Of a stretch of 64,000 bases of DNA, positions 6,846-28,236 are shown piece by piece. The notes under the pieces are model-generated. The model was not told where the DNA came from. It did no database searches and saw only the letters and a program-made list of their open reading frames with translations. Where the stretch lies: NCBI RefSeq assembly GCF_000263735.1, contig NC_017946.1, positions 909,348 through 973,347 on the forward strand, given 5' to 3'. Position numbers and translations under genes: made by a program. Source of the stretch: Pyrococcus sp. ST04 (GTDB lineage Archaea > Methanobacteriota_B > Thermococci > Thermococcales > Thermococcaceae). Within the stretch, counting starts at the first letter, position 1; each line of letters opens with the position of its first letter.

Positions 6846-6902
6846 ATACCTGAAAACTTTTAGTTAATTTTGGTAAAGAAAAAATTCTAGGGGTGGTGGG
6901 AG

Positions 6903-7661
6903 ATGGTGTACGTAGCAGTTCTAGCAAATATTGCAGGTAACTTACCTGCTTTAACGGCGGCACTAGCAAAGATAGAGGAGATGAAGGAGGAAGGCTACGA
7001 TATAGAGAAGTATTACATTCTGGGGAACATAGTTGGATTGTTCCCCTATCCAAAAGAGGTTATAGAGGCTATAAAGAACCTTGCAAAGAACGAGAAAGTT
7101 AAGGTGATTAGGGGTAAGTATGACCAGCTAATAGCGATGAGCGATCCACATGCTCAAGGCCCAGAGTATTTGGACAAGCTCGAAATTCCAAAGCACCTGA
7201 AAGCTTCCCTTAAATTCACATGGGAAAAACTCGGTCATGAGGGAAGAGAGTATTTAAGAGATCTCCCCGTCTATCTTGTGGATAAAATTGGAGATAATGA
7301 AATTTTTGGCGTTTATGGAAGTCCAATAAACCCCTTCGATGGAGAGGTTTTACCAGATCAGCCCACCAGCTACTATGAGGCTATAATGAGACCAGTAAAG
7401 GATTACGAAATGTTAATCGTGGCAAGTCCAAGGTATCCAGTAGATGCAATGACGAGGTACGGAAGGGTTGTATGTCCAGGAAGTGTAGGGTTCCCACCAG
7501 CCAAGGAACACAAAGCAACATTTGCCTTGATAGATGCTGAAACCTTGAGAGTGAAGTTTGTTGAAGTCGATTACGATAAGAAGATAATTGAAGAAAGGAT
7601 TAAGACTGAGGGCCTTCCAGAGGAGATCGTCAAAATCTTATACCACGGAGGAAAAGCTTGA
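6903..7661 (+). CDS. Calcineurin-like phosphoesterase fold with degenerate metal site
   Basis: 252 residues, resembling the P. furiosus PF1291-type protein of the YfcE/calcineurin-like fold. The layout is canonical but the metal ligands are replaced. The DxHGN position reads ANIAGN (N9, A11), the GDxVG position reads GNIVG (N42), and the GNHD position reads GKYD (K72, Y73). Later motifs (VASPRYP, VCPGSVGFPP) are kept except for histidines. A catalytic phosphoesterase is therefore unlikely, and a binding or scaffold role is more plausible. A GGTGGGAG site lies just before the ATG at 6903. The 3' end overlaps the convergent flippase gene by 32 nt. Confidence 0.88.
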   Translation: MVYVAVLANIAGNLPALTAALAKIEEMKEEGYDIEKYYILGNIVGLFPYPKEVIEAIKNLAKNEKVKVIRGKYDQLIAMSDPHAQGPEYLDKLEIPKHLKASLKFTWEKLGHEGREYLRDLPVYLVDKIGDNEIFGVYGSPINPFDGEVLPDQPTSYYEAIMRPVKDYEMLIVASPRYPVDAMTRYGRVVCPGSVGFPPAKEHKATFALIDAETLRVKFVEVDYDKKIIEERIKTEGLPEEIVKILYHGGKA

Positions 7662-8919
7662 ACTCTTTCTTTAAATCTTTAAATTCAAACAAAAGGAACA
7701 GCAGAAATACAAAAGGTGTTTTTTCTACAAGAACTTGCAAGGGGATTGCGAGAAGTACGGGCTTGATTATTAAAGCACTAACCTTAAAGGTGTTCCTAGA
7801 CTTCATAACCACGAGAATAAAAATCGTAAAGTATCCAAGAAGAAGGCCCAAGGAAGCTCCAATCTCTTTGAAGCTTGGTATGAGAACAAGCCAAGAGATC
7901 CCAGCAACTGAGGCACCAACTAGTGAGTAGAGGGCTGAATCTTTTATGTAGTTAGTTGCCGATAGCATATTTATTAGGGGATTAAACGTAACATAGAGTT
8001 CAACAGCTATAAGGGCTATCAGAAAAGTCCCTCCAAATTCTATCTTGAACATACTCTCAATATACGGAGCGAATATCTGGAGGATGAATACCGAAATCGA
8101 TGAAAGCAGAGCTAGGGATAGTGTAGATTCCTCTGCAAGCTTCTTTATACTCTCCTTTTCACCTCTTCCGAACTCGTAAGCGTAGAGAGGAACTATTGCA
8201 GACTGGACAACCTGGGGAAGATAAGAGAGTAGGAATGATGTAGAGAGAACGGCAGATACAACTCCAGCAGTTTTTGCTCCAGCAAGCTCTTCAGATAAGA
8301 AATAAGGTCCCTGCAAAAGGAACATTCCTGAGATACTCCCAACAAACGCCCAAAAGGAGTATTTTGCTAAATTTAGAACTTCAGCCCTTCCGGGAATGCC
8401 AAAATATCTTCTGGAATATAGAATTCCCAACACGGAGATAGTTCCTAATAGCAGGTAGTAGGGAGCAAGAACGCCAATATGAAAGCCAAGTAGGAATGCA
8501 AAAAATCCTAGGAGAACGAAGTATGCATAAACTTCTCCCTTGTGGAGGCCATAGATGAATGATCTGAATGTTAGTTGTAAAGCCCGGAGTGTTGAGAGAA
8601 CAGCTAGGTGAATATTTACAAGAGAAAATGCAAGACCCAGTAATGGAAGAGTAAAAGAAACCCCAGTGATTTTCTTAATTCTGCTCTCTTCTCCCTTTCC
8701 AAGGAATTCTGCGGTGTACTTTCCAAGTCCAACCGAAAAGAACGATAAGAAGCCGGCGAGTAAAAACGCCTGTGAGATTAAAGAGTTTACATTGCCAAGC
8801 ACGCTAACCCCATATTCCCTGGCAACTATAAGGTTGTAAATGAATCTACTCCCCCCAAAAACAGCCAGTGCAATGATACTCGCTATCGAGTGCCTTATTA
8901 TAACTTCTCTTTTCCCCAT
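7630..8919 (-). CDS. Polysaccharide flippase-like (MOP/Wzx) membrane protein
   Basis: 429 residues with about 12 hydrophobic segments and the N-terminal signature of polysaccharide biosynthesis flippases (FGGSRFIYNLIVAREYG, then a loop and VGLGKYTAEFLGKGEE). The family flips lipid-linked oligosaccharides or related polyprenol intermediates across the membrane. In Thermococcales such genes often serve protein N-glycosylation, but no glycosyltransferase lies nearby to support that here. It is monocistronic, divergent from proS across 92 bp and convergent with the phosphoesterase-fold gene. Confidence 0.85.
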   Translation of the reverse strand: MGKREVIIRHSIASIIALAVFGGSRFIYNLIVAREYGVSVLGNVNSLISQAFLLAGFLSFFSVGLGKYTAEFLGKGEESRIKKITGVSFTLPLLGLAFSLVNIHLAVLSTLRALQLTFRSFIYGLHKGEVYAYFVLLGFFAFLLGFHIGVLAPYYLLLGTISVLGILYSRRYFGIPGRAEVLNLAKYSFWAFVGSISGMFLLQGPYFLSEELAGAKTAGVVSAVLSTSFLLSYLPQVVQSAIVPLYAYEFGRGEKESIKKLAEESTLSLALLSSISVFILQIFAPYIESMFKIEFGGTFLIALIAVELYVTFNPLINMLSATNYIKDSALYSLVGASVAGISWLVLIPSFKEIGASLGLLLGYFTIFILVVMKSRNTFKVSALIIKPVLLAIPLQVLVEKTPFVFLLFLLFEFKDLKKEFKLFLRGIRF

Positions 8920-9011: not shown

Positions 9012-10469
9012 ATGGTGGAGAGGAAGAGGTGGAGCGAGAACTTTAGTGAGTGGTTCAATGAGGTTATAGAGGAGGCTGGCATATTAGATAAGAGGTATCC
9101 AGTAAAAGGAATGAACGTCTGGTTACCCTATGGGCTTAAAATAATGAGGAACATTGAAAAGTTTATCCACGAAGAAATGGAAAGAACTGGTCATCAAGAA
9201 GTTCTGTTTCCAGCCCTAATTCCCGAAACAGAGTTTAAGAAAGAGGCAGAACATATAGCCGGATTTGAAGGTGAAGTTTTTTGGGTAACTCATGCTGGTC
9301 ATGATCCCCTTGACGTTAAACTAATTCTCAGACCAACAAGTGAGACCGCAATATATCCGATGTTCTCCAAGGATAGAGGGGGCTGGATAAGGTCTCATGC
9401 GGATCTTCCTTTTAAAATATACCAGATAGTTAATGTGTATAGGTACGAAACAAAGCATACAAGGCCTCTCATTAGAGTCAGGGAGATTAGTAGATTCTTT
9501 GAGGCTCATACAGCTCATGCGGATTTTGAAGATGCTGAAAGACAGATAAGAGAGGATCTTGAGATATTTGACAACCTAATGAAGAAGCTTGCAATGGCAT
9601 ATATAATTTCCAAGAGGCCGGAATGGGACAAATTCCCAGGTGCCTTCTATTCCCTGGGAGCAGAAGTTGTAATGCCCGACGGGAGAACCCTTCAGATAGG
9701 AACCATGCACAACTACAAGCAGAATTTTGCAAAGGCTTATAATATTGTTTATGAAAAAGAGGACGGAACTCACGATTACGTTCACCAAACAACGTTTGGA
9801 ATGAGCGAGAGACTACTTGCCGCCGTCATAGCAGTACATGGCGATGACAGGGGGATGGTTTTACCTCCCACCATAGCCCCAATTCAAGTTGTGATAGTTC
9901 CAATTCCTAAGAAAGGTGAAGACGAGAAGGTCTACTCATACGCTAAAGAGATCGAAGAGGAGCTTAGGAGCGCTGGCATAAGGGTTCATCTCGACATGAG
10001 GGACAAAAGGCCAGGCTGGAAGTTCTACGACTGGGAGCTCAAAGGAGTACCAGTGAGGGTAGAAGTTGGACCTAGAGACGCCGACAATGGAACTGCTGTT
10101 CTTGCAAGAAGGGACAAGCTGGAGAAGATGACCATAAAGAGAGAAGAGCTTGTAGATAAGGTTAGAGAGCTCTTTGATGATATAATGAAGTATCTCTATG
10201 AGAGATCCAGGGAATGGCTCGAGAGTCATATAAAGAGGGTTGACACACTTGAGGAAGCTAAAAAAGTTTTCGAGGACAGAAGAGGAATAGTTGAGATTCC
10301 ATGGTGTGGTAGAGAGGAATGTGGTCTTAAGATGGAGGAAGAGCTTGAGGCGAAAATGTTAGGGATTCCATATCCAGAGGAGAAGGCTAGGGAGGGTGCT
10401 GAAGGAAAGAAATGTCCTGTTTGTGGTAGGGAAGCGAAGTTTATAGCAAGGTTTGCAAGAACTTACTGA
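9012..10469 (+). CDS. proS: Prolyl-tRNA synthetase (archaeal/eukaryotic type)
   Basis: 485 residues. Class II motif 2 is visible as [17 protein letters not shown] and motif 3 as [15 protein letters not shown]. The anticodon-binding domain follows ([21 protein letters not shown]). A C-terminal zinc-binding domain has WCGREECG and CPVCG cysteines and ends in ARTY, the usual terminus of archaeal ProRS. It charges tRNA-Pro. GGTGG lies about 8 nt before the ATG. The kinase-like gene starts 10 nt after its stop, so they form one operon. Confidence 0.97.
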
Positions 10470-14190: not shown

Positions 14191-14240
14191 TGAACCAAAA
14201 AGTTTATATATCCGAACCATATTAGTTCTTATTGAGAACA
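14191..14240 (+). promoter_or_regulatory. Peroxiredoxin promoter with phased GAAC/GTTC half-sites
   Basis: TTTATATA (14203-14210) is the TATA box, about 50 nt before the peroxiredoxin ATG. GAAC occurs at 14192-14195, 14214-14217 and 14236-14239, and GTTC at 14225-14228. The last three are spaced by exactly 11 bp and the first lies 22 bp earlier, so all four fall on one helix face. They flank the TATA box and cover the expected start site, as a repressor operator would. The regulator is unknown. Confidence 0.55.
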
Positions 14241-14260
14241 AAATTATGGAGGAGATCGAA

Positions 14261-14911
14261 ATGGTAGTTATTGGAGAAAAGTTCCCAGAAGTTGAGGTAA
14301 AGACGACCCATGGAGTGATAAAGCTCCCGGACTACTTCGCCAAGCAGGGCAAGTGGTTTATACTCTTCAGCCACCCAGCTGACTTTACTCCAGTCTGTAC
14401 AACTGAATTCTATGCAATGCAGAAGAGGGTTGAAGAGTTCAGGAAGCTTGGGGTTGAGCCTATAGGATTGAGCGTTGATCAAGTGTTTGCACACATTAAG
14501 TGGATGGAATGGATAAAGGAGAACCTAGGTGTCGAGATAGACTTTCCAGTTATAGCAGATGACAGGGGAGAACTTGCCGAGAAGCTTGGAATGATACCAA
14601 GTGGTGCAACGATAACAGCAAGGGCCGTCTTTGTAGTCGATGACAAGGGAATAATAAGGGCAATAGTCTACTATCCAGCCGAGGTCGGTAGGGATTGGGA
14701 CGAGATACTAAGGCTCGTCAAGGCACTTAAGGTAAGCACCGAGAAGGGCGTTGCACTTCCACACAAGTGGCCGAACAACGAGCTCATTGGTGACAAGGTA
14801 ATAATACCTCCAGCTTCAACAGTTGAGGAGAAGAAGCAGAGAGAAGAAGCAAAGGCCAAGGGAGAAATAGAGTGCTACGACTGGTGGTTCTGCTACAAGA
14901 AGCTTGAGTGA
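14261..14911 (+). CDS. Peroxiredoxin (archaeal Prx6-like, 216 residues)
   Basis: It reduces hydrogen peroxide and alkyl hydroperoxides. The peroxidatic cysteine is C46 in [13 protein letters not shown]. The C-terminal C205 and C211 ([14 protein letters not shown]) match the resolving-cysteine arrangement of the P. horikoshii and Aeropyrum decameric enzymes. Length and sequence are almost those of the P. horikoshii protein. The ATG at 14261 has GGAGGAGAT upstream. An in-frame upstream extension to 14168 would run through the promoter and is rejected. It is the last core gene before the G+C-rich island. Confidence 0.95.
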
Positions 14912-14938
14912 GCTTCTCCCCCAATTTCGTTTCTCTTC

Positions 14939-15365
14939 TTACTCTTCACGGAACCAAACCACAAGGAAGGAACCCGTCATCGCCATTGCGTAGGCCACCG
15001 GCTTCAATGTCAGACAGCTCCCTTCAGGCACCTTTGAAAGTTCCGATGCAAATACGACACTTATGAAACTCAGGTATATTCCAATCCGAAACAGTGCTTT
15101 GTTCGCATTGAGTCCGCTCTTTGCCCTAAGTCCCGCGAGATAAGCGATCAACACCATCAAAGTTAATGAAATCCATTTGCTGATTCTTCCCATTGCTTCA
15201 TAACAGTCGGGAACGTTGCACGTTGTTGTAAAACCGTGCGGATCTATCCACGTGCCATTAGAGGGACATTGCTTTGGTTCCTGGGAATAGACAAGTGTGA
15301 TCAGGCCTGAAAAAAAAGATAGTGAGAATCAGAAGTTCGATAATTTTTCTCTTAAATGTCTGCAT
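14939..15365 (-). pseudogene. Secreted/membrane protein gene with a -1 frameshift at an 8-base homopolymer
   Basis: From ATG 15365 (GGGGGAGGGG just upstream) the frame encodes a signal-peptide-like MQTFKRKIIELLILTIFF and then runs into an 8-A/T run at 15310-15317. If one base is removed there, reading continues through a Cys-containing segment (QCPSNGTWIDPHG, CNVPDCYEAMG) into the 84-residue downstream ORF with two or three membrane segments, ending at 14939. Together this makes about 142 residues. No family is recognised. A TATA-like tcatataaag lies near 15437. Decay, slippage or a sequencing error could explain the break. Confidence 0.65.
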
Positions 15366-15542
15366 GCCCCTCCCCCAGCGCTGATCGATAACAACAATGC
15401 TCTGGGAGTTCCCCAGTCTAACCCTTGGCAGTATTCTCTTTATATGACTTTCCCGTAGTATTCCGTTATTCCAGCAGCAGTTTTGCTGGCTGTTTAAATC
15501 AAAAACCGAAGTAAACAAGTAAACACGAACGCTCCCTGGGCC

Positions 15543-16247
15543 TCAAAGCACCCTCCTCCTGAAGAGTACCACCAGCGGAACCAGCCAGGCCAGATGCACG
15601 AGCACCGCCATCGGGAAATCGCTGTAGTCGTTTAGGGCTATGCCCTCGAAGACTCTGTACGTCCAGTACGTCGGCAAAAACGCCGTGAGCTTGCTCCAGT
15701 CGGTTGAGAGGTTCCTCCAGAGGACAACGAGCTTTACCGCCACTGGCAAGATTAATAGCCAGCCGAGAATCTTGGAGACTGTGATAGCCTGCATTCTGGA
15801 TTCGGCGAAGATGGTTATCAGCAGTCCATAGATCCAGACCTCCAGCAGGAAGAGAAGAACCAGCGCCAGAACACCCTTTTGGGAAATCTCCATGTCGAGA
15901 ATATGAGGCGCTATCACCGTAAAGGCTACGGTCACCAGCGAAGCCCACGTGAGCCTGTAAACAAGGAACGCCTCGCTCGATATGGGAATCACCCGCAGTG
16001 CTTGTACTGTCTTGTTCTCCTTCTCGTCAGCCATCATGAAGCCGGGAATCATGCCGAATATCATGGGTATGAATATCAGCACGAAGAGCGCGATGGCGTA
16101 GTAAAGCTCGCCCATGCGATCCTTGAAATAGCGGACGATGAAGAGGAGCACCAAAGTCATCCCCACGCTGTATAGTAGTATGGGGTCCCTGCGGAGCAGT
16201 TTAAGGTCGGTCCTGTATATGGCAGCGAATTTTCGCACAAAGCTCAT
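15543..16247 (-). CDS. ABC-2 type exporter permease
   Basis: 234 residues with six predicted membrane segments. The extended N-terminal helix (YRTDLKLLRRDPILLY) and MADEKENKTVQALRVIPIS are typical of ABC-2 permeases. It overlaps the preceding permease by ATGA (16244-16247) and forms a three-gene exporter with the ATPase. Codons are G+C-rich, unlike the flanking core genes. The cargo is unknown. Confidence 0.87.
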   Translation of the reverse strand: MSFVRKFAAIYRTDLKLLRRDPILLYSVGMTLVLLFIVRYFKDRMGELYYAIALFVLIFIPMIFGMIPGFMMADEKENKTVQALRVIPISSEAFLVYRLTWASLVTVAFTVIAPHILDMEISQKGVLALVLLFLLEVWIYGLLITIFAESRMQAITVSKILGWLLILPVAVKLVVLWRNLSTDWSKLTAFLPTYWTYRVFEGIALNDYSDFPMAVLVHLAWLVPLVVLFRRRVL

Positions 16248-16945
16248 CTCACTCCCTCCACCGCGTACCTGTAAAAGCGGATTTTAGCGAGGTTATATGC
16301 CATGCCGCTCCAGATTATCAGGGCCAACGATGACCACAGCAGGGTATTCGTTGATATTTCTTCGAAGGGCGCCTTAAAGAAGTAGAGCGCCGGATAGCTC
16401 GGGATGACGTAGAGAACCTTCCATATCCCGTCCGTCAGGTAGCCGTGATAGTGGGCGAAGGGCAGGAGGGAGAGCACCATGACGCCGAGGAGCGGCACAA
16501 AGTAGTCGTCCAAATCGCGGTATTTTGAGGCTATTGCTATGCCAAGGAGCGTATAGACTACCGAAACTAACAGGGTACCTGCCAAAACGTAGGGAAGCCC
16601 GTTCAGGGAGCGCGTGCCGAGGCAGAATATAAGCACCGCCGCCGGGAGGGAAACCAGCGCCATAAGGAGAGCCTTGGCGAGGATGTAAGCCCTCCAGTCG
16701 AGTGGCGTAACCGCCAGAGCGCCTATCGTCCCGTCCTTCTTCTCCGCGAAGATGGCCGTACCGACGAAGGTGAAGCCGACCATCCCGGGCTCAAGGAGCA
16801 GGAAGAGGGGAACGACGGTTGAGCGGTACCCCTCTGGAAACGCCATCACCATGAGGCCATAAGCTAAAGCCACGAGCAGGTATATCGGATAGACGTAGCC
16901 CCTCGTTCCGACCTTCAGGTCGAGCCTCACCAGCTCGCCTATCAT
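16244..16945 (-). CDS. ABC-2 type exporter permease
   Basis: 233 residues with about six membrane segments. FAEKKDGTIGALAVTPLDWRAYILAK is the ABC-2 coupling region, parallel to that of the neighbouring permease, so the two probably make a heterodimeric channel. It overlaps both neighbours by ATGA (16942-16945 and 16244-16247). It shares the G+C-rich codon use of the island. The substrate is not indicated. Confidence 0.86.
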   Translation of the reverse strand: MIGELVRLDLKVGTRGYVYPIYLLVALAYGLMVMAFPEGYRSTVVPLFLLLEPGMVGFTFVGTAIFAEKKDGTIGALAVTPLDWRAYILAKALLMALVSLPAAVLIFCLGTRSLNGLPYVLAGTLLVSVVYTLLGIAIASKYRDLDDYFVPLLGVMVLSLLPFAHYHGYLTDGIWKVLYVIPSYPALYFFKAPFEEISTNTLLWSSLALIIWSGMAYNLAKIRFYRYAVEGVR

Positions 16946-18537: not shown

Positions 18538-18682
18538 TTCCTCTTTTGTGTATTGTCTGTCGCTCTGTCCGCAGGAGGAATGTGATGCCTCATCCCCCGA
18601 TCACGGAGGTGAAACCCTCTGGAACGTTCGTTCCACCGGGTTTCCAAAATACGTCTTCGCCCAATATCCCCTGGTGGTGGAT

Positions 18683-19498
18683 GTGGATAGGCTGAAGGCG
18701 CTTCTGGTGGTCGTCTTTATTGTTGACGTAGTAGCTATAGGAGTCGTTGCTAGTGCGTTTTTCGAGGGGAACGAAAGTTCCGACGCTGCGGCCGCAGCAG
18801 GAAAAATCGTTCCAGCGGCCATCAAGCTTTACAGCACGCCAATGGGATCCACCGAGGCCATCAACGGAACCCTCGTGGGTGATGTCCAGGTGATAGAGAC
18901 CCCCGCTGGAACAGCATTCCAGTTCAACGGCTCGGGATACGTAGATCTGAGCAGCGCGCTGCCTGATATCCAAGACCTTAAAGTCGGATCGATATCTCTC
19001 TTCTTCAGATTCGAGGAGACGAACCAAAACGTACTTCCCATACTGTACATCGGCGACAGGAAAGGAGAAAACATGTTCATTGTCGAAATAGGGCATCGGG
19101 GAGAGGACAACAGGAAGCTCTACGTCACGTGGGTCGAGAATGGAAAACCAGTCCTGTGCTTCGACAGCGGCTTTAACCTCAAGCCGGAGAGATGGTACCA
19201 CCTCTTTGTCGTTGTGAGTGATGAAGGAAACACTGCCTACCTCAACGGGAGGGAGCTTGTGGGAAGGCATTACAATTTTGGGAACAGTGGCATGAGGTTT
19301 TTCATCGCCGACATTCCGAACACGGAAATCATGACTGCCGGCTACGGCAAGACAGCCGATTCAATAACGCCAGAATTCCTGTATTTCAGAGGAGCTGTGA
19401 TGGGTCTGGAGGTGTACTTAAGACCCCTGAAAGCCTGGGAAGTCCAAAGCTTGCTGGATGAGGTTCGGCAGCGCGTTCGAAAAACTCAGACATCCTAG
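18683..19498 (+). CDS. Membrane-anchored protein with LamG/concanavalin A-like domain
   Basis: About 271 residues. An N-terminal transmembrane anchor (KALLVVVFIVDVVAIGVVAS) is followed by an Ala-rich linker and a beta-sandwich region. Its motifs GSGYVDLSS, GSISLFFRFEE, PERWYHLFVVVSDEGNTAYL and GAVMGLEVYLRPLKAWEVQ are characteristic of LamG/pentraxin-like lectin folds. It is probably extracellular and carbohydrate- or surface-binding. GTG at 18683 has GGTGGTGG upstream. GTGs at 18674 and 18677 are alternatives. It is G+C-rich like its neighbours. Confidence 0.72.
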   Translation: MDRLKALLVVVFIVDVVAIGVVASAFFEGNESSDAAAAAGKIVPAAIKLYSTPMGSTEAINGTLVGDVQVIETPAGTAFQFNGSGYVDLSSALPDIQDLKVGSISLFFRFEETNQNVLPILYIGDRKGENMFIVEIGHRGEDNRKLYVTWVENGKPVLCFDSGFNLKPERWYHLFVVVSDEGNTAYLNGRELVGRHYNFGNSGMRFFIADIPNTEIMTAGYGKTADSITPEFLYFRGAVMGLEVYLRPLKAWEVQSLLDEVRQRVRKTQTS

Positions 19499-20531: not shown

Positions 20532-22934
20532 TCACACCTTGGCCCTCTTCAGCAGGAGCGAGTTGGTGACGACGCTGGCGCTGCTTATGCTCATCGCTCC
20601 GGCCGCCCACTCCGGCTGGAAGCTTACCCCGAAGAAAACGAACGCCAGACCGGCCGCGAAGGGGATCAGCATCGTGTTGTAGAACATCGCCCAGAAGATG
20701 TTCTGCTTAATCTTCGAGAGTGTCTTTTGGCTGAGCTTTATTGCCCTGACAACGTCCATGGGGTCGTTCTTTATGAGGACTATATCCCCGCTCTCCATGG
20801 CTATGTCCGTTGCATTGCCGACGGCTATGCCTATATCCGCCTGGGCCAGAGCAGGGGCATCGTTTATTCCATCTCCAACAAAAATGACTACCTCTCCCTT
20901 CTCCTGAAGCTTCTTCACTTCGTTTGCTTTATCCTGGGGTAAAATTTCTGCTAAAACGTAATCTATGTTAACCTGCTTAGCTATCGCTTCTGCGGTTCTT
21001 CTATTGTCGCCGGTAATCATTCCAACTTTCTTGCCCATTTTGTGAAGCTCCTCTATCGCTTCTCTCGCACCTTCTTTGATTGTGTCCGCTATCCCAATAA
21101 CCCCTACTATTTTTCCGTCAATTGCCACTATTATTGCCGTTTTAGCTTCATCTTCAAGCTTAAGGAGAGCTTTTTCAGCCTCTCCTTCTATTGAATAACC
21201 ATTCTCTTTGAACAGCTTTCTATTTCCGGCCAAGATTTCCTTCCCATCCACTACCGCCTTTACTCCCTTGCCGGTTATTGCCTCAAAGCTTTGGGGCTCT
21301 TTGTCCTCTAATCCGAGCTCTTGAGCTTTCCTAACTATGGCCTCTCCTAGTGGGTGCTCTGAGCGCTTTTCAGCTGAAGCTATTAAGCTCAAAAGCTCTT
21401 TCTTATCCATGCCAAAAGTCACTACATCTGTAACTTCAGGTGTCCCCTTTGTTAGCGTCCCCGTCTTATCGAAGAGAACTATCGTGGCTTTCCTTGCTAT
21501 TTCCAGTACTTCACCGTTCTTAATTAAAATGCCCATTTCGGCACCTTTACCCATTCCAACGGTTAAAGCCGTTGGAGTTGCCAAGCCAAAGGCACATGGG
21601 CAGGCAATCACCAAAACGCTAAGCAGTGTTGTGAAGGCGAAGAGCAAGGGCTGGTCAGCTATGAAGTACCAGTATCCAAAGGAGATTAGTGCTACTGTCA
21701 AAACGGTTGGAATGAAGTATGTAACGACTTTGTCCGCTAATCTCTGAATTGGTGGTCTTGTATTTTGTGCCTCCTCAACGAGCCTAATTATTTGTGCCAG
21801 AACGGTGTCCCTTCCGACCCTCTTTGCCTCGATTTTAAGCACGGAGTTCTTGTTAATCGTTCCGCCGATAACCTCGTCGCCCTTCTTCTTCAAATTTGGA
21901 ATTGGTTCTCCGGTAACCATCGATTCGTCAACGTAGCTTTCTCCCTCAATTACAATTCCATCGACTGGGATCCTCTCTCCAGGTTTGACTATAACAATAT
22001 CGCCGACTTTAACTTCGCTTATTGGAACTTCAATATCTTTTCCATCCCTAATTACGGTTGCCTTTTTAGCCTGAAGCCCCATGAGCTTTTTAATTGTCTC
22101 ACTCGTTCTTCCTTTGGCCAAGGTCTCCAAGTAGCGTCCAAGCAGGAGGAAGGCCATCAGCAAAACGCTTGCCTCATAAAAGTTGAACTCTCTCGGAATA
22201 ATTCCTATTGTAGCTAAAACGCTTGCAAAATAAGCAGACCCAATTCCCATGGAGTACATGACCTCCATGTTCAAGCTTTTGTGCTTCACTGAATTGAGAG
22301 CCTTTCCAAAGATATCCCTTCCAGCGTAGATTATTGCCAGAGTTGCCAGCAGGAATTGAATGTAAATTAAGCTGGGAATTTCAATTCCAAACCTGTGAAG
22401 CTGCGTTGAGGCGAAGAGAGGTATTCCTATCCCCCAAGCAACTGCAAGTTTTTTCTTCATTTCCCTTATGTGCTTCTCTCGAACCTCTTTTTCTACGTCA
22501 TAGCTTTCCTCACCTTCAACTCCCAAGAATTGGTAGCCAACCTCTTCAATTGCTCTTTTAATGTCTTCCATACTTACTAAACTTGGATCATAGCTTACCT
22601 TAGCCTTCTCAGTTGCCAAATTGATCTGGGCATCTAAAACCCCAGGGAGCTCTTTAAGAGCTACTTCAATGGTTTTAACACACATTGCACAGGTCATTCC
22701 ACCGATTTTTATTATTGCATTCCTCTTTTCCCTTACAACTGTATAACCGAGCTCTTCAATCGTCTTTATAATCTGATTCAGGCTGACCATTGACTCATCG
22801 AAGTCAACGTAAACATTTTCAGAGTTTAAATTGGCCCTGGCATCTTTAACACCATCAAGCTCTTTTAGAGCCGTTTCTATAGTTTTAACACACATTGCAC
22901 ATGTCATTCCATTAACCTTAAGCGTGAGCTTCAT
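20532..22934 (-). CDS. copA: Copper-translocating P1B-type ATPase
   Basis: 800 residues from ATG 22934 (an in-frame GTG at 22943 is an alternative). Two N-terminal heavy-metal domains carry GMTCAMC (C12/C15 and C82/C85). Then come the TGE actuator motif (341-343), the CPC transmembrane metal site (445-447), phosphorylated D489 in DKTGTLT, and GDGINDAPAL near the C-terminus. It exports Cu+. The adjacent regulator gene is broken. Base composition changes within the gene: residues after about 668 (below roughly 20.93 kb) are coded by G+C-rich DNA like the exporter island, the rest by AT-richer DNA. Confidence 0.96.
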   Translation of the reverse strand: MKLTLKVNGMTCAMCVKTIETALKELDGVKDARANLNSENVYVDFDESMVSLNQIIKTIEELGYTVVREKRNAIIKIGGMTCAMCVKTIEVALKELPGVLDAQINLATEKAKVSYDPSLVSMEDIKRAIEEVGYQFLGVEGEESYDVEKEVREKHIREMKKKLAVAWGIGIPLFASTQLHRFGIEIPSLIYIQFLLATLAIIYAGRDIFGKALNSVKHKSLNMEVMYSMGIGSAYFASVLATIGIIPREFNFYEASVLLMAFLLLGRYLETLAKGRTSETIKKLMGLQAKKATVIRDGKDIEVPISEVKVGDIVIVKPGERIPVDGIVIEGESYVDESMVTGEPIPNLKKKGDEVIGGTINKNSVLKIEAKRVGRDTVLAQIIRLVEEAQNTRPPIQRLADKVVTYFIPTVLTVALISFGYWYFIADQPLLFAFTTLLSVLVIACPCAFGLATPTALTVGMGKGAEMGILIKNGEVLEIARKATIVLFDKTGTLTKGTPEVTDVVTFGMDKKELLSLIASAEKRSEHPLGEAIVRKAQELGLEDKEPQSFEAITGKGVKAVVDGKEILAGNRKLFKENGYSIEGEAEKALLKLEDEAKTAIIVAIDGKIVGVIGIADTIKEGAREAIEELHKMGKKVGMITGDNRRTAEAIAKQVNIDYVLAEILPQDKANEVKKLQEKGEVVIFVGDGINDAPALAQADIGIAVGNATDIAMESGDIVLIKNDPMDVVRAIKLSQKTLSKIKQNIFWAMFYNTMLIPFAAGLAFVFFGVSFQPEWAAGAMSISSASVVTNSLLLKRAKV

Positions 22935-22943
22935 AACAGACAC

Positions 22944-23049
22944 CGATATTTACTAAACAGTAAGTCTTAAGGAGATTATTTTTATCAAAGTGTAAATATT
23001 AGCTGAAGAATTTTTATATTTTGAAAACAAATAATCATAGGTGTTTATC
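22944..23049. promoter_or_regulatory. Divergent copA/copR promoter region with inverted repeat
   Basis: The 106-bp spacer holds TATA-like stretches for both directions (tttttatatttt near 23010 for copR; gataaaaataat on the minus strand near 22980 for copA). An inverted repeat, TTACT-AAAC-AGTAA (22950-22963), lies where copA transcription should start. It is a candidate copper-regulator operator, as CopR-type proteins regulate this gene pair in related Thermococcales. No alignment was possible here. Confidence 0.45.
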
Positions 23050-23522
23050 ATGGTAAAGTTGGACGAAATAGATTTCTAGAACGTCTTGAGAAGGAGGGGG
23101 TTATTCAGCGCTACACAATTAAACTCAGCTCAGAACTCCAGAGGGCCCACAACGTCGTTGCTCTTATCATCAAAACAGACAAACCCGAGAAGTTACAGGA
23201 GTTCGAGGAAATCATTGAGATCAATCGCTTCACGAGTAAGAAGTACCTCATAAAAGTGGCTGTCGAAGACATGGAGGGGCTGAGAAACGTAATAGAAGGT
23301 GCCGGTTTTGAGGTGCTTGAGATAATGCCCATCCTAGAGAGCATCGAGAAAGAACACCCTCCAAAGATCAAAGTGCCGTTCAAATGCGACTATTGTGGAA
23401 AAGAGATTGTCGGAGAGCCAATAGTCTATAAGTACCACAATAGAGTTTACTTCTTCTGCTGTCCTACATGTTTGAGGGAATTCAAGAGAACAAGAGAAAA
23501 ACATATAGAAAATCCAAGCTAA
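23050..23522 (+). pseudogene. copR: CopR-type copper-responsive regulator lacking its HTH, out of frame
   Basis: It begins MVKLDEIDF and hits a stop at 23077-23079. In another frame from about 23080 the sequence resumes as ERLEKEGVIQRYTIKLSSEL and continues to a TRASH metal-sensing domain (FKCDYCGKEI, then FFCCPTCLREF) ending at 23522. Intact homologues have roughly 30 residues of Lrp-like helix-turn-helix between these points. An internal deletion with frame loss explains the structure. An 88-residue protein from ATG 23256 with only the metal-binding part could still be made. Confidence 0.82.
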
Positions 23523-23576
23523 AACACATTCACAAACATTGGAGGGGATTGATAAGTCTCCTTAAATTATTTTCTA

Positions 23577-23620
23577 CTTTTTCTTTTGAAAACTTCACCC
23601 TTTAGGATGGAGATGTAGTA
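23577..23620 (+). repeat. Degenerate copy of the IS-end-like hairpin element
   Basis: CTTTTTCTTTTGAAAACTTC followed by ACCCTTTAGGATGGAGATGT aligns with the element at 52488-52533 with scattered substitutions. The inner stem is weakened. It lies between the broken copR and the broken radical SAM gene, so it may mark an old transposition or deletion site. Confidence 0.5.
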
Positions 23621-23636
23621 ATTTTGATATTGCCCT

Positions 23637-24428
23637 ATGAGGAGTGAACTCTTAACTATCTTGGTTAACATTTTGGTTGACGAAAAAGAGGCATTGAGTG
23701 GCTGTATTAATAACTTATCTATCTATATAAGTCTATATAAGCTAAAGTATCCTCAGAGAACAGACTGATAATAAATCCAGGGACAATTGTAATTTATCTT
23801 GCGCTAAGATATTTGTTATGAGCCCTCCTATGATCCTGGCTATGTAGAGGAAATGTTATCTACGAGTAAAAATCTAAAATCTTAGTATTCCTGTTAGACA
23901 TTATTCTGCAATGACAAATGGAGTATTCGAGGATCCTGAGAGAACTTTAGTAATCATCACGAAGCATCCAATACATACAAATAACATTACCATTTATTTT
24001 GTTTTGTTATAATGTTCTATTGCCCGTAGGAAAAATTCTGCGTTTGTCGTGAATCCTTGGGGAAACATCTTCAGTGTGCACCTACAATAAAGACAACGAA
24101 CTAATTGTGGGTCCAGATGGTTCCATTTATAAGTGTACATCAGCCATTGGATTGGATAGATTCAAAGTAGCATCAAAAGAAGAGGTATTTTATAATCAAG
24201 AGTTATTTTTAGTAAAATTTTATTGAAGGAGGCAAGGGCGATAATTATTGCTGGAGCTGTCAGTATTTCCCGGTATGTGGGGGAGGATGTGTATACAATG
24301 CGTGGATTGAGGGTAAAAAGAAGGACTGCTGGGCTATATTTCACCAAAAAACACTACCAAAATTTGCAGAGATGTTATTAGAAATGGATGAAGTAGAACC
24401 CGATATTTGGGTACCCTTAGAAAAGTAA
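23637..24428 (+). pseudogene. Radical SAM/SPASM peptide-maturase, heavily decayed
   Basis: Fragments in several frames. A TGTAATTTATCTTGC at 23788-23802 encodes CNLSC, the start of a radical SAM CxxxCxxC, and after an indel the next stretch reads YCYEPSYDPGYVEEM. Further on, CTYNKDNELIVGPDGSIYKC (from 24077) continues to VKFY and a stop at 24224-24226. After a 1-base shift at a T4 run comes the SPASM segment YCWSCQYFPVCGGGCVYNAW, ending with the stop at 24426. Such enzymes install crosslinks or other modifications in ribosomal peptides. The intact exporter after it suggests a former RiPP-type locus. The 5' boundary is uncertain. Confidence 0.72.
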
Positions 24429-24506
24429 TCCCCACAGTATAACAAAACTATAAAAATTACAATATACTCCAAAAAAGACAAGATTATCAACGCATGGTGA
24501 CTTACT

Positions 24507-25343
24507 ATGAATAACGAGGTAATCCAAATTATTGGCGTCTCCAAATTTTTCGGAAATATCAAGGTGCTAAAGAATATAAATCTCAGAATTCGTGAGGGGG
24601 ACTTTGTGGTAATAGCAGGAGAAAACGGTTCGGGTAAGACAACACTTCTTAAAATAATGACAGGTCTGTTAATCCCAGATGAAGGCGAAGTTAGAGTCTT
24701 AGGGTTTGATGCCTCTAAAGACTGGAAAAAACTTTCTAAGTACATTGGTGTTGCATTGGCAAATGAAAGGAGCTTATATTGGAAGCTTACGGGCCTGGAA
24801 AATTTAGAGATATTTGCCGGACTTTATGGAGTCAAAAAAGGAAAAAGAAGGGCATTGGAGTTGCTGGATAAGCTCAATCTGATACATGCAAAAGATAAAC
24901 TCGTAGAGGAATATTCAAGCGGTATGCGGCGGAAATTGCTTTTAGCTAAAGCCACAATTCATGACCCAAAAATCTTGTTTCTTGATGAGATACTTAACGG
25001 TCTTGATCCCAAATCCTACATAGAGATTATAGAGTTCCTTAAGGAATTGAACCAAAATGGGACAACAATTGTTTTAATTAGCCATGTCCTTCATGATTTG
25101 CCCCAAGAAGCTAGGCTGATAGTTATGAAAGATGGCAGGATTATACTTGACGATAAGCTTTCGAAGTTCAAACTGGATGGTGGTATAAGAATTAAAGCAA
25201 CGATTAACGGAAGAGAAATTGAAAGAATAGTATCTGAAAATGAGCTTGATAAAACACTAATAGAGCTCACAAAAAGTGGGGCTAAGAACATTCAAATTGA
25301 AAGAGATGACTTATACTCCATTTTAAGGAGGATTCTTAAATGA
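24507..25343 (+). CDS. ABC transporter ATP-binding protein (exporter next to SPASM remnant)
   Basis: 278 residues. Walker A is GENGSGKTTL, the signature is YSSGMRRKLLLAKA, Walker B is ILFLDEILNGLDP, and the switch histidine is LISHV. The C-terminal extension is about 65 residues. It overlaps the downstream permease by ATGA (25340-25343). A TATA-like aactataaaaatt lies near 24448. The cassette is AT-rich and appears intact while the adjacent maturase is broken, so it may now serve another substrate or be on its way out. Confidence 0.92.
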   Translation: MNNEVIQIIGVSKFFGNIKVLKNINLRIREGDFVVIAGENGSGKTTLLKIMTGLLIPDEGEVRVLGFDASKDWKKLSKYIGVALANERSLYWKLTGLENLEIFAGLYGVKKGKRRALELLDKLNLIHAKDKLVEEYSSGMRRKLLLAKATIHDPKILFLDEILNGLDPKSYIEIIEFLKELNQNGTTIVLISHVLHDLPQEARLIVMKDGRIILDDKLSKFKLDGGIRIKATINGREIERIVSENELDKTLIELTKSGAKNIQIERDDLYSILRRILK

Positions 25344-26107
25344 TTAATGTAAAAGGCATTCTTACAATTGCCAAAAAGGAATGCAAGATACAGCTTCGAT
25401 ACCGGGTAGTGTGGCTTAACTTTGCCTTAACACCATTCTTTATGTTGGCCCCGTGGGTTCTAACCGCTAAGATGTTCTCCTCGGACTTCGGTGAAGCTGT
25501 TTTAGTTGGCTCTCTCATGTGGTACTGGCTCAATCAATACTTTTTTGGAGTTCAAGAAGCATTCGAAGAGGAGAGGGAAGAGGGGACTTTAATAAGTATT
25601 GCTTTAGCCCCAATCTCACTGCTGGAGTTTCTGATTGGAAAAGGAATGTGGATTCTTGTGGAATGTATATACATAACGGGCGTTACTATGATAATCTTCT
25701 GGGCTCTGGGAATATCGCAGGCAACGTCATTTCAGATGTTCGTCCTCTATATACTCTCCGGGTTGTATATGTTTGCATTTTCTATCCTCTGGGGGGCCTT
25801 AGTGTTGCAATTCAGAAGGATTGCAGGTATAAATTTTATAACTCAAGAAATCCTGGGGATGGCCTCTGGTGTCACCGCTAATATTACTGCTTATCCTAGA
25901 TTAGTGAGAATCGTAGCTTATGCTATTCCTCTATCATATACCATAAAAATCGGTAGGGGAATTTTGCAGGGGAGAACTTTCTTTGAAGTTCTTTTTGATT
26001 TTGCTATTCTGACTATCATAACGTTCTTGTATTTTTCTATAGGGGCGGTACTGCTCAAAAGGGCTGAAAATAATCTGAGGATTAAAGGGGGATGGGAAGC
26101 TTGGTGA
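25340..26107 (+). CDS. ABC-2 type exporter permease
   Basis: 255 residues with about six membrane segments. FEEEREEGTLISIALAPISL is the ABC-2 coupling region. It starts in an ATGA overlap with the ATPase and its 3' end overlaps the next permease by 16 nt. It probably forms a heterodimeric export channel with that protein. The cargo is unknown, and a peptide is the contextual guess because of the SPASM remnant upstream. Confidence 0.86.
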   Translation: MINVKGILTIAKKECKIQLRYRVVWLNFALTPFFMLAPWVLTAKMFSSDFGEAVLVGSLMWYWLNQYFFGVQEAFEEEREEGTLISIALAPISLLEFLIGKGMWILVECIYITGVTMIIFWALGISQATSFQMFVLYILSGLYMFAFSILWGALVLQFRRIAGINFITQEILGMASGVTANITAYPRLVRIVAYAIPLSYTIKIGRGILQGRTFFEVLFDFAILTIITFLYFSIGAVLLKRAENNLRIKGGWEAW

Positions 26108-26904
26108 GGTTCTTATATCTAGCAAAAGCATCCCTATTAACTGCAAAGCGTTATAAGATAGATTGGTATGGCAACGTTTTAATGCCCATTCTTGGTGTTC
26201 TCCCGGTCATTATTGCAGTCTGGTACGGAAACAGAATTGGCTTTCTGGATTTCTCAGATGTTGTTGGGACTGAAAAGTTCTTTGAATATTACATTCTTGG
26301 GGTTACATACTGGAACTATGTTGAGGCAGTCTGGGCATCAATTTTTATGCTGAGGGAACACATGAGAATTGGACAGTTAGAGGAACTCCTCCTTACTCCA
26401 GTTAAGCCGTGGGAATATATCCTCGGCTGGTCTTTCTTGGCAATAATCTTGACAACGGTTAGTTCCATGCCGTTGATTTTAATAGCTATTGCAGTAAACA
26501 TCTTTCATACGAGCATAAAAGCATACATTCTGGCAACCTTCATATTTTTAATTTCAATGATAGCCTCTTTTGGTTTTGCATTTTTAATTTTTGGTTTAAC
26601 GTTAGTGATTAGAGAAGGCGATGAAATAGTTTCATTACTTGGAAATGCTGCTCCTCTTTTAGGGGGCCTCTACTTTCCTGTAACTCTGCTTCCAACGCCA
26701 TTATTAATTATCTCCTATGTATTTCCATTCACCTGGGGGGTTGATCTACTCAGGACTGTTTTTTTAGGTTCCAAAACAATTCTCAGCTTTGAAACTGAAC
26801 TGATACTTCTCTTTATAATGTCCCTTGGGTACTTTGGAATGGGGATTCTAAGCTACAAATTACTCGAGATTAAAATGAGAAGAAAAGGAATTCAGGGATT
26901 TTAA
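26092..26904 (+). CDS. ABC-2 type exporter permease
   Basis: 270 residues with about six membrane segments. The N-terminal amphipathic part (LYLAKASLLTAKRYKIDWYG) and IGQLEELLLTPVKPWEYILG mark it as a second ABC-2 subunit. ATG 26092 lies inside the previous gene. TTG 26101 or GTG 26104 are possible later starts. It is the last gene of this exporter. The 170 nt that follow hold an open but start-less stretch and the NMD3 leader. Confidence 0.85.
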   Translation: MGSLVRFLYLAKASLLTAKRYKIDWYGNVLMPILGVLPVIIAVWYGNRIGFLDFSDVVGTEKFFEYYILGVTYWNYVEAVWASIFMLREHMRIGQLEELLLTPVKPWEYILGWSFLAIILTTVSSMPLILIAIAVNIFHTSIKAYILATFIFLISMIASFGFAFLIFGLTLVIREGDEIVSLLGNAAPLLGGLYFPVTLLPTPLLIISYVFPFTWGVDLLRTVFLGSKTILSFETELILLFIMSLGYFGMGILSYKLLEIKMRRKGIQGF

Positions 26905-26924: not shown

Positions 26925-27072
26925 TTGGGAAAAGTTTCTAGAAAGAACCCAAAAATATGCCTCGCCAATCGTTAGAACGGTTATCTTTGTCCTTAATGTT
27001 ATTTTAGTACCCACTCACCATATGCAAAATATCAAAAATGCCATTTTCAAAATATCCTTGGAGGTGAGGATA
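26925..27072 (+). other. Possible gene remnant upstream of NMD3
   Basis: From about 26925 an open frame without a start codon reads LWEKFLERTQKYASPIVRTV and then a hydrophobic stretch (IFVLNVILV). It stays in frame through ATG 27022 into the NMD3 gene. The amphipathic/hydrophobic pattern looks protein-like, perhaps the C-terminus of a lost membrane protein. Stops lie just before it. It may equally be chance. Confidence 0.25.
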
Positions 27073-28236
27073 GTGAGATTTTGTTATAGGTGTGGAATCA
27101 GCGAGGATGAGGGTGGTCCTCTAATTAATGGCCTTTGTCAAGTTTGTTTTAGAAAGGAGAATCCAGTTCTTTTAATTCCCTCTGAGATAAATACTGAACT
27201 CTGTCAGAACTGTGGGAGCTATAAGAAGAGAGGTGTTTGGGTTGACCCAGTTAACTATGAGCTTGATGCCCTGATATTCGAGGTAGCTGAGAATGCGCTA
27301 CTTGAGGCTATAGAGGATTCCCTGTCCAATGTAAAGGAATATGAGGTAGTTGACTGGGAGGAGCTCGAAGAAATTAGGAACATTCCTGTAGGAAAGGCAT
27401 TTATAGCGTTTAGAGTGCTAGATTACCATATAGAGCACTTTCCTGCAATAGTCATCTATGAGGTTAGGGCCAAGGCTAGGATTCATGAACTTCAAGTTGA
27501 ACCCCACGACGAAGTCAGGACGACAACGGTTTTTGTAAGGCAAACCGTATGTCCGAGATGCCAGAAGTTTCTTGCAGGTTATTATGAGGCAATACTTCAA
27601 GTTAGGGTTGAGGATAGGAAGTTCACGAAAGAGGAAAGGGAAGAAATAACGAAGCTTGTTCAGGAGAAAGTCGATGAAATCATGAGGAAAGACAGGATGG
27701 GGTTTATACAGGACACCATAGAGAAGGAAGAGGGAATAGACTTTTACATGGGCTCAACGAGCGCAGCTAGGAAGCTTGCCAATGCAATAAAAGAGAAATA
27801 TGGGGGAGTTATAAGTGAGGCCTACGAGCTTGTAGGCTTGGACAGAATGACCAGCAAAGAAGTTTACAGGACGAGCGTTACAATAAGACTTCCAAAATTC
27901 AGAAAGGGCGACATAGTGGAGGATAGGCATGGGAGAGTGTATAGGGTTGAAAATGTCGATGGAAAAGGGATGAGGCTTAAGAACCTCGAAACATGGGAAA
28001 GCGAGCACTATGACTGGAAGACTATAAAAAGAGAAAAGATAGACAAAGTAGAGCATGAAGAGAGGAAGGCCCTCTTAATGGGACAAACCCCGAGAGAAGC
28101 CCAGTTCATGGACATGGAAACCTATGAAACCTTTGAATTGCCTAAGCCGAGAGAAAGCCTTGAAGATGGCCAGGTGTATAAGATCGTGAAGGTTAAGGGA
28201 AGGATGTATATAAAGGAAAAGGAGGGAGAGAAATGA
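27073..28236 (+). CDS. NMD3-like 60S/50S ribosomal subunit export/maturation protein
   Basis: 387 residues. Zinc-type cysteine pairs are CYRCG, CQVC, CQNCG and CPRCQ, followed by the conserved archaeal NMD3 body (DYHIEHFPAIVIYEVRAKAR, YMGSTSAARKLANAI). Eukaryotic NMD3 binds the large subunit at the A/P/E sites during maturation. Archaeal homologues are assumed to act in ribosome assembly or subunit quality control. GTG 27073 is chosen because GGAGGTGA lies at 27059-27066. An in-frame ATG at 27022 has none. The stop overlaps the next ORF by ATGA. Confidence 0.93.
   Translation: MRFCYRCGISEDEGGPLINGLCQVCFRKENPVLLIPSEINTELCQNCGSYKKRGVWVDPVNYELDALIFEVAENALLEAIEDSLSNVKEYEVVDWEELEEIRNIPVGKAFIAFRVLDYHIEHFPAIVIYEVRAKARIHELQVEPHDEVRTTTVFVRQTVCPRCQKFLAGYYEAILQVRVEDRKFTKEEREEITKLVQEKVDEIMRKDRMGFIQDTIEKEEGIDFYMGSTSAARKLANAIKEKYGGVISEAYELVGLDRMTSKEVYRTSVTIRLPKFRKGDIVEDRHGRVYRVENVDGKGMRLKNLETWESEHYDWKTIKREKIDKVEHEERKALLMGQTPREAQFMDMETYETFELPKPRESLEDGQVYKIVKVKGRMYIKEKEGEK

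Follow-up and report, generated by a model that had tools for sequence, protein, structure and literature searches.

In the 64,000-nucleotide stretch of the Pyrococcus sp. ST04 genome that was analyzed here (the window), the wreck of a radical SAM/SPASM maturase gene (positions 23669-24428) lies directly upstream of three intact ABC-2 exporter genes (24507-26904; Table 1). The exporter genes overlap or nearly so, and all three reading frames are open and of full length, in line with the earlier note on this DNA, which described an intact exporter next to a ruined SPASM gene. The region is flanked by an intact gene for a CopA-type P-type ATPase, beside which a copR-like regulator gene carries an in-frame stop near 23080 and a frame change, with its N-terminal DNA-binding part disrupted, and, on the other side, by the gene for an NMD3-like core protein.

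Table 1. Features of the maturase-exporter locus and its flanks (window coordinates)
Feature	Position	Strand	Remarks
CopA-type P-type ATPase, intact	20532..22943	-	flank
CopR-like regulator, broken	23050..23522	+	flank; C-terminal TRASH domain open, N-terminal part disrupted
43-codon ORF	23637..23768	+	from about 23669, N-terminal maturase stump, codons 44 to about 64
SPASM maturase remnant, codons 44-54	23669-23698	+	alignment to G062
SPASM maturase remnant, codons 55-84	23727-23805	+	contains CNLSC; alignment to G062
SPASM maturase remnant, codons 129-184	23820..23989	+	CYEPSYDPGYVEEM... corresponds to GGEPFYDPSYVEEM... of the intact gene
SPASM maturase remnant, codons 184-208	23999..24070	-	inverted in place relative to G062
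SPASM maturase remnant, codons 308-429	24071..24428	+	two frames; VGPDGSIYKC and CWSC...CGGGC
TATA-like element aacaaaactataaaaattac	24441..24460	+	before the exporter; putative function
ABC exporter ATPase, intact	24507..25343	+	PF00005, 100 bits; best NCBIfam match drrA, 192 bits (cut-off 312)
ABC-2 permease 1, intact	25340..26107	+	PF01061 and PF12698 over cut-off
ABC-2 permease 2, intact	26092..26904	+	PF01061, 27.6 bits (cut-off 26.9)
NMD3-like protein	27022..28236	+	core gene, yardstick for horizontal transfer

The wreck was mapped by alignment of the window to the intact homolog in another genome of the family (G062, locus L080) and by reading positions 23550-24520 in three frames. The gene has been disrupted by deletions, stop codons and frame changes, and one 71-bp piece of it, 91.7% identical at the nucleotide level to the reverse strand of G062, is inverted; codons 1-43, 85-128 and 209-307 of the maturase are absent. 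The surviving pieces are 67-97% identical to the intact homolog at the protein level, the best two scoring 151 and 97 bits, compared to never more than 25 bits in 1000 shuffles of the region. All seven cysteines of the SPASM domain are still recognizable in the last piece. At the other end of the protein, the intact enzyme contains the sequence CNLSCTYCMQQ, of which the window retains CNLSC, followed by a loss of 44 codons; neither the third cluster cysteine nor the GG of the GGEP motif survives. The Pfam SPASM model does not detect the wreck in the window genome, where it finds only two other, intact SPASM genes.

Fragments in three frames had been assigned to a SPASM enzyme from the letters alone, and they are present as described; the exception is YCYE, which is not a cluster-binding motif. 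As a candidate for the third cysteine of CxxxCxxC it was rejected, given that CYEPSYDP in the window aligns to the later GGEPFYDP of the intact enzyme. The 43-codon ORF noted as overlapping the wreck is located where it was reported but is itself part of the wreck; it was rejected as a precursor because its ILVDEKEALS and KLKYP match ILVDGEEALS and KLKYP of the intact maturase. We further observed that the last 207 bases of the remnant (24219-24425) are 97.6% identical to G062, compared to 86.6% for the adjoining ATPase gene, with dS values of 0.09 and 0.51, respectively, a possible sign of a recombination tract.

The search that the earlier note had proposed, for relatives with an intact SPASM-ABC cluster and its short precursor ORF, identified two such loci, in the Thermococcaceae genomes G062 and G099, which share the same gene order: a conserved 31-codon ORF, the SPASM maturase, the ATPase and the two permeases. 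These are the only intact SPASM genes matching the window pieces among the 94 Thermococcaceae genomes (92% for G062 and 91% for G099 over the query); the proteins are 86% identical to each other, and among 115 genomes of the phylum no further intact homolog was found, the next best matches being only 29-31% identical. Both maturases contain the radical SAM domain (PF04055, 69.6 bits) with the CxxxCxxC motif complete as CNLSCTYC, in contrast to the window, where the gene is broken, and a SPASM domain (TIGR04085, 44-45 bits, cut-off 27) with a seven-cysteine pattern (C310...C396), to which Pfam PF13186 gave no match. The exporter adjoins the enzyme in all four loci that hold a SPASM gene or its remnant, the other two being the window and a third relative, G013. 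Neither intact loci devoid of a precursor nor a consistent separation of exporter and enzyme, which the note had named as grounds for giving up its interpretation, were encountered in the genomes searched. Thus, the G062 and G099 loci support the interpretation of the window as a former ribosomally synthesized peptide (RiPP) modification and export locus, with modification and export of the product themselves predicted. Scans of genome contigs yielded only 22-24% matches, in two bacterial MAGs; viral contigs contained no match for the maturase or the precursor, and among the plasmid matches listed, no maturase exceeded about 27% identity. The solved structures related to the maturase by sequence are limited to anSME, a SCIFF-type enzyme, ChlB and SkfB, and for permease 2 none was found by sequence.

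The 31-codon peptide, MVKTILSRLISGPTPAGGCCNRSQRCKNLLF, is encoded directly upstream of the maturase in both G062 and G099 and is identical in all 31 residues, whereas its genes differ at 10 nucleotides, all of them synonymous (dN 0, dS 0.70; with 22 of the 93 sites synonymous, the probability of this outcome by chance is about 5e-7). Each of the two genes has a GGAGG-type ribosome site and is the first gene after a common upstream block, AACYATAAGTTTACGAAAA..ATAAATA, which resembles an archaeal promoter and could serve as one. G013 encodes the same peptide as far as a point shortly after the third cysteine; what follows is a stretch of just 50 maturase codons, fused to the region in front of the ATPase gene. 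A degenerate pattern for the first half of the precursor matches three of the 94 genomes (G013, G062 and G099), in each case at the cassette, compared to none for the reversed control, and a protein search of the 115 genomes found the peptide in these three, at E <= 2.5e-15, with no match in the others better than 0.02; weaker matches in other genomes (E 0.02-0.5) were taken as chance. Neither search found the precursor in the window genome, which bears out the earlier statement that no convincing precursor is present there. In Pfam and NCBIfam, no model matched the peptide, and its gene appears to be new to the libraries searched.

Judged by its genes, the cassette qualifies as a SPASM-RiPP cluster, the chemistry of which is predicted, although neither the maturase nor the precursor scores above a cut-off specific to any named peptide system in NCBIfam. 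The nearest maturase models, CefB, geopeptide, TIGR04463 and Clo7bot, all remain far below their cut-offs. The CefA/CefB ('Cys-every-fifth') system, the best match, similarly has a short cysteine-containing precursor ahead of a SPASM enzyme; however, the maturase reaches only 141-143 bits against the NF038107 cut-off of 600, which does not place it in that family, and the precursor has three cysteines rather than one at every fifth residue and gives no match to NF038108 at E <= 10. The CefA-like peptide of a control genome (G034) scores 46.6 bits with the latter model (cut-off 30). The SPASM architecture is shared with the maturases of ranthipeptides (SCIFF/CteB, PapB) and with those of TIGR04463 and Clo7bot, and the SCIFF-type protein among the few solved relatives is PDB 5wgg, which we take to be CteB; by analogy, ranthipeptide-like thioether chemistry would be a reasonable guess for the cassette. 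Nevertheless, the maturase scores 51 bits with TIGR03974 (cut-off 425) and 74-80 bits with NF047865 (cut-off 340); with all these models its scores lie between 51 and about 120 bits, where the cut-offs are 340-600, which leaves it outside the ranthipeptide families, and the precursor lacks six-Cys or CX3D-type repeats. As in the sactipeptide and epipeptide clusters (thurincin H, thuricin CD, SKF, YydFGHIJ), a precursor, a radical SAM enzyme and an ABC transporter with several components (thnD/E/T, trnF/G and yydIJ in the bacterial clusters; PMC8172795, PMC7026026) are found together, but those clusters are bacterial and employ different maturase subgroups, and the archaeal cassette showed no protease gene that could account for removal of the leader. 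The exporter resembles DrrAB-like and lantibiotic-protection exporters (TIGR01188, TIGR01247, TIGR03740), with drrA as the best match of the ATPase and drrB a weak match of permease 2. It differs from them in that it has two different permeases instead of one and in that all scores are below the curated cut-offs (for the ATPase, 192 bits with TIGR01188, cut-off 312, and 139 bits with TIGR03740, cut-off 310), so that it belongs to neither family.

Several other loci in the family resemble RiPP clusters. In G062 (L080, reverse strand, about 14310-16893) and G073 (L089, 5488-8038), a second candidate precursor, MK(K/R)KLKI(R/K)KL(S/T)NAGCYHWNSHDSVGL, directly precedes a further SPASM enzyme and an MFS exporter, for which the two genomes show 80% and 61% identity, respectively; the 15-residue core of the precursor is identical in both, and the peptide is found in only these two of the 115 genomes. 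In G062, on the reverse strand, the promoter-like block that precedes the first precursor (9761-9812) recurs before the second precursor at 14214-14265 (81% over 52 bp), which suggests shared regulation or duplication, and the island with both RiPP systems is bracketed by fragments (9497-9751 and 18560-18825, 72.6% similar) that, by eye, look like parts of a transposase. In G034 (L090, about 4500-8265), a member of the same archaeal family that served as the positive control for the approach, the CefA-like precursor is followed by a SPASM enzyme, an ABC ATPase and a permease. Roughly four SPASM genes within 19 kb are present in each of G021 (L084) and G088 (L088), an apparent hot spot for such systems. 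A copA gene (79% identical) is found near the cassette in two genera (window, 20532-24428; G013, C1:1457391-1470937), and the metal P-type ATPases in the vicinity possibly belong to a metal-resistance island that carries the cassette.

Close orthologs of permease 1 are present in only 10 of the 94 genomes: the window genome, G062, G099 and G013, and G003, G004, G006, G008, G012 and G023. Tblastn over 15 kb found no SPASM gene or precursor beside the exporters of G003, G004, G006, G012 and G023, nor, on a short contig where less than 15 kb was searched, beside that of G008; the upstream stretches of five of these six were also read by eye. Thus, with six of the ten orthologs devoid of a SPASM gene, the exporter is not exclusive to the cassette, and another substrate is possible. 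The six occupy a separate part of the exporter tree, and the possibility that other members of the genus carry an orthologous cluster was rejected, since the exporters of G003, G004, G006 and G008 are only about 62-67% identical to those of the window and are preceded by neither a SPASM gene nor a precursor. The window, G062 and G013 have exactly the same TATA-like element, aacaaaactataaaaattac, which is absent in G099, and the deletion in the SPASM gene of G013 ends just upstream of it; its position before the ATPase gene fits separate expression of the exporter, which does not by itself prove selection after the loss. On a clostridial plasmid, a 48% identical permease adjoins genes for another ABC exporter and a VanZ-like protein, a setting that would also suit peptide export or resistance.

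The exporter proteins of the window are 88-91% identical to those of G013 and 81-89% identical to those of G062 and G099, and the four linked exporters, from three genera, form a single clade (support 99/99). By contrast, NMD3 of the window is 75-88% identical within the genus and 66-69% identical to its counterparts in G013, G062 and G099, and in the NMD3 tree the window genome groups with its own genus. Because the exporter is more conserved across genera (79-91%) than the core gene (66-69%), and the clade of linked exporters conflicts with the NMD3 tree, we conclude that the cassette crossed genera horizontally. The upstream neighbors of NMD3 differ in the same-genus genomes, and no simple empty site was seen among them. 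The maturase was lost twice and in different ways, by scrambling with an inversion in the window and by one clean deletion in G013, and the exporter was spared both times. The dN/dS ratio of the exporter between the window and G013 is 0.10-0.13, and the lineage-specific changes in the exporter are mostly synonymous in the window (56 synonymous vs 26 non-synonymous) and, similarly, in G062 (51:24). The ratio is reversed in the SPASM remnant (about 12:29), a difference with a Fisher p of about 5e-5, which is rough, since the counts are of two kinds. The constraint on the exporter cannot be dated to after the loss of the maturase, the constraint before and after the loss being inseparable.

Taken together, these observations are best explained if a Thermococcaceae RiPP cassette was acquired horizontally and has since decayed to the present locus, a reading to which we assign a probability of about 0.8. 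This explanation builds on the gene order, the conservation of the precursor, the losses, the transfer and the constraint on the exporter, with only two intact copies (G062 and G099) in the genomes searched, and extends from there to putative promoters, chemistry, export and role. The cassette is best read as a new, small family of predicted RiPP clusters that decayed in the window to an orphan exporter, with chemistry and function surmised from the genes. The intact form would comprise one promoter, followed by the 31-codon precursor, the radical SAM/SPASM maturase, the ABC ATPase and the two ABC-2 permeases. Once the precursor is synthesized, the maturase, by analogy with other SPASM systems (PMC8172795), should bind the N-terminal leader and cross-link the conserved core, GGCCNRSQRC, using SAM and Fe-S clusters; the cross-links would most simply be thioethers from the cysteines, a first guess that follows from the three cysteines in the core. 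The three-part exporter would then carry the product out of the cell or pump it out of the membrane, and outside the product could act as an antimicrobial or a signal. The linkage points to a part for the pump in export or immunity, and in bacterial systems ABC-2 pumps are credited with one or the other (PMC8172795; PMC7026026). In the window genome, with the precursor and the promoter gone and the maturase scrambled, no product can be made; the exporter would be kept most simply because it still expels the peptide of neighbors or some other substrate.

A sharper form of this explanation, to which we give somewhat less than even odds, is that an antimicrobial peptide system of archaea has the exporter as its means of immunity, such that production was lost and selection for resistance keeps the pump in resistant non-producers. 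The orphan exporter of the window genome may provide immunity in this manner: it survived both independent losses of the maturase, the TATA-like element before its ATPase gene is retained in the window and in G013, it stays constrained, and the related permease on the clostridial plasmid has another ABC exporter and a VanZ-like protein for neighbors. In the epipeptide system, the transporter YydIJ was likewise postulated to confer immunity but proved to be only a minor resistance factor (PMC7026026), and the constraint after the loss merges with that before it. Bolder still, and in our estimate doubtful, is the proposal that the intact cassette yields a hitherto undescribed modified peptide with the GGCCNRSQRC core and that hyperthermophilic archaea use it against close kin, the window genome and G013 being resistant non-producers that independently lost the maturase and kept the pump as immunity, like bacterial bacteriocin cheaters.

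Alternatively, the exporter could be a general ABC-2 pump for drugs or lipids that is a chance neighbor of the SPASM gene in one clade, with the SPASM gene and the precursor forming a two-gene system of their own that has no dedicated transporter. Although most of the exporter orthologs (6 of 10) lack a SPASM gene and, in G062, G013 and the window, a promoter seems to be dedicated to the ATPase gene, this is unlikely, given that the exporter follows the maturase (G062, G099) or its remnants (G013, window), that the linked exporters form one clade, and that the whole unit moved between genera together. Lower still is the probability that the product binds metal, as a cysteine-rich peptide of a copper or metal resistance island. 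The copA and copR-like genes that flank the cassette in the window, the G013 copA ortholog (79%) at 8.4 kb with another metal ATPase just downstream, the related metal ATPase downstream in G062 and the three cysteines of the core are compatible with such a role, but the intact cassette of G099 has no such genes on its 11-kb contig and the arrangement varies between genomes, so that both may simply share a plastic region. The chance that the wreck reflects fortuitous similarity, or a sequencing artifact with the stops and frame changes as errors, is negligible: nothing was found in favor of either, the internal deletions, the inversion and the lost 5' end are unlike base-call errors, and the 67-97% protein identity of the pieces is far above that of shuffles.

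The decayed cassette is a modest finding for the window genome, whose own maturase gene is dead. For the family, literature searches that covered RiPPs of archaea and of Thermococcales turned up nothing on this system and no paper describing such a modified peptide from Thermococcales, and a named precursor, maturase and exporter are now available from two genomes, all small enough for direct expression; a hyperthermophilic maturase would, moreover, be convenient for structural work. The loss of the producer genes and the retention of the pump make it testable whether archaea, too, have bacteriocin-like producer, immune and sensitive types.
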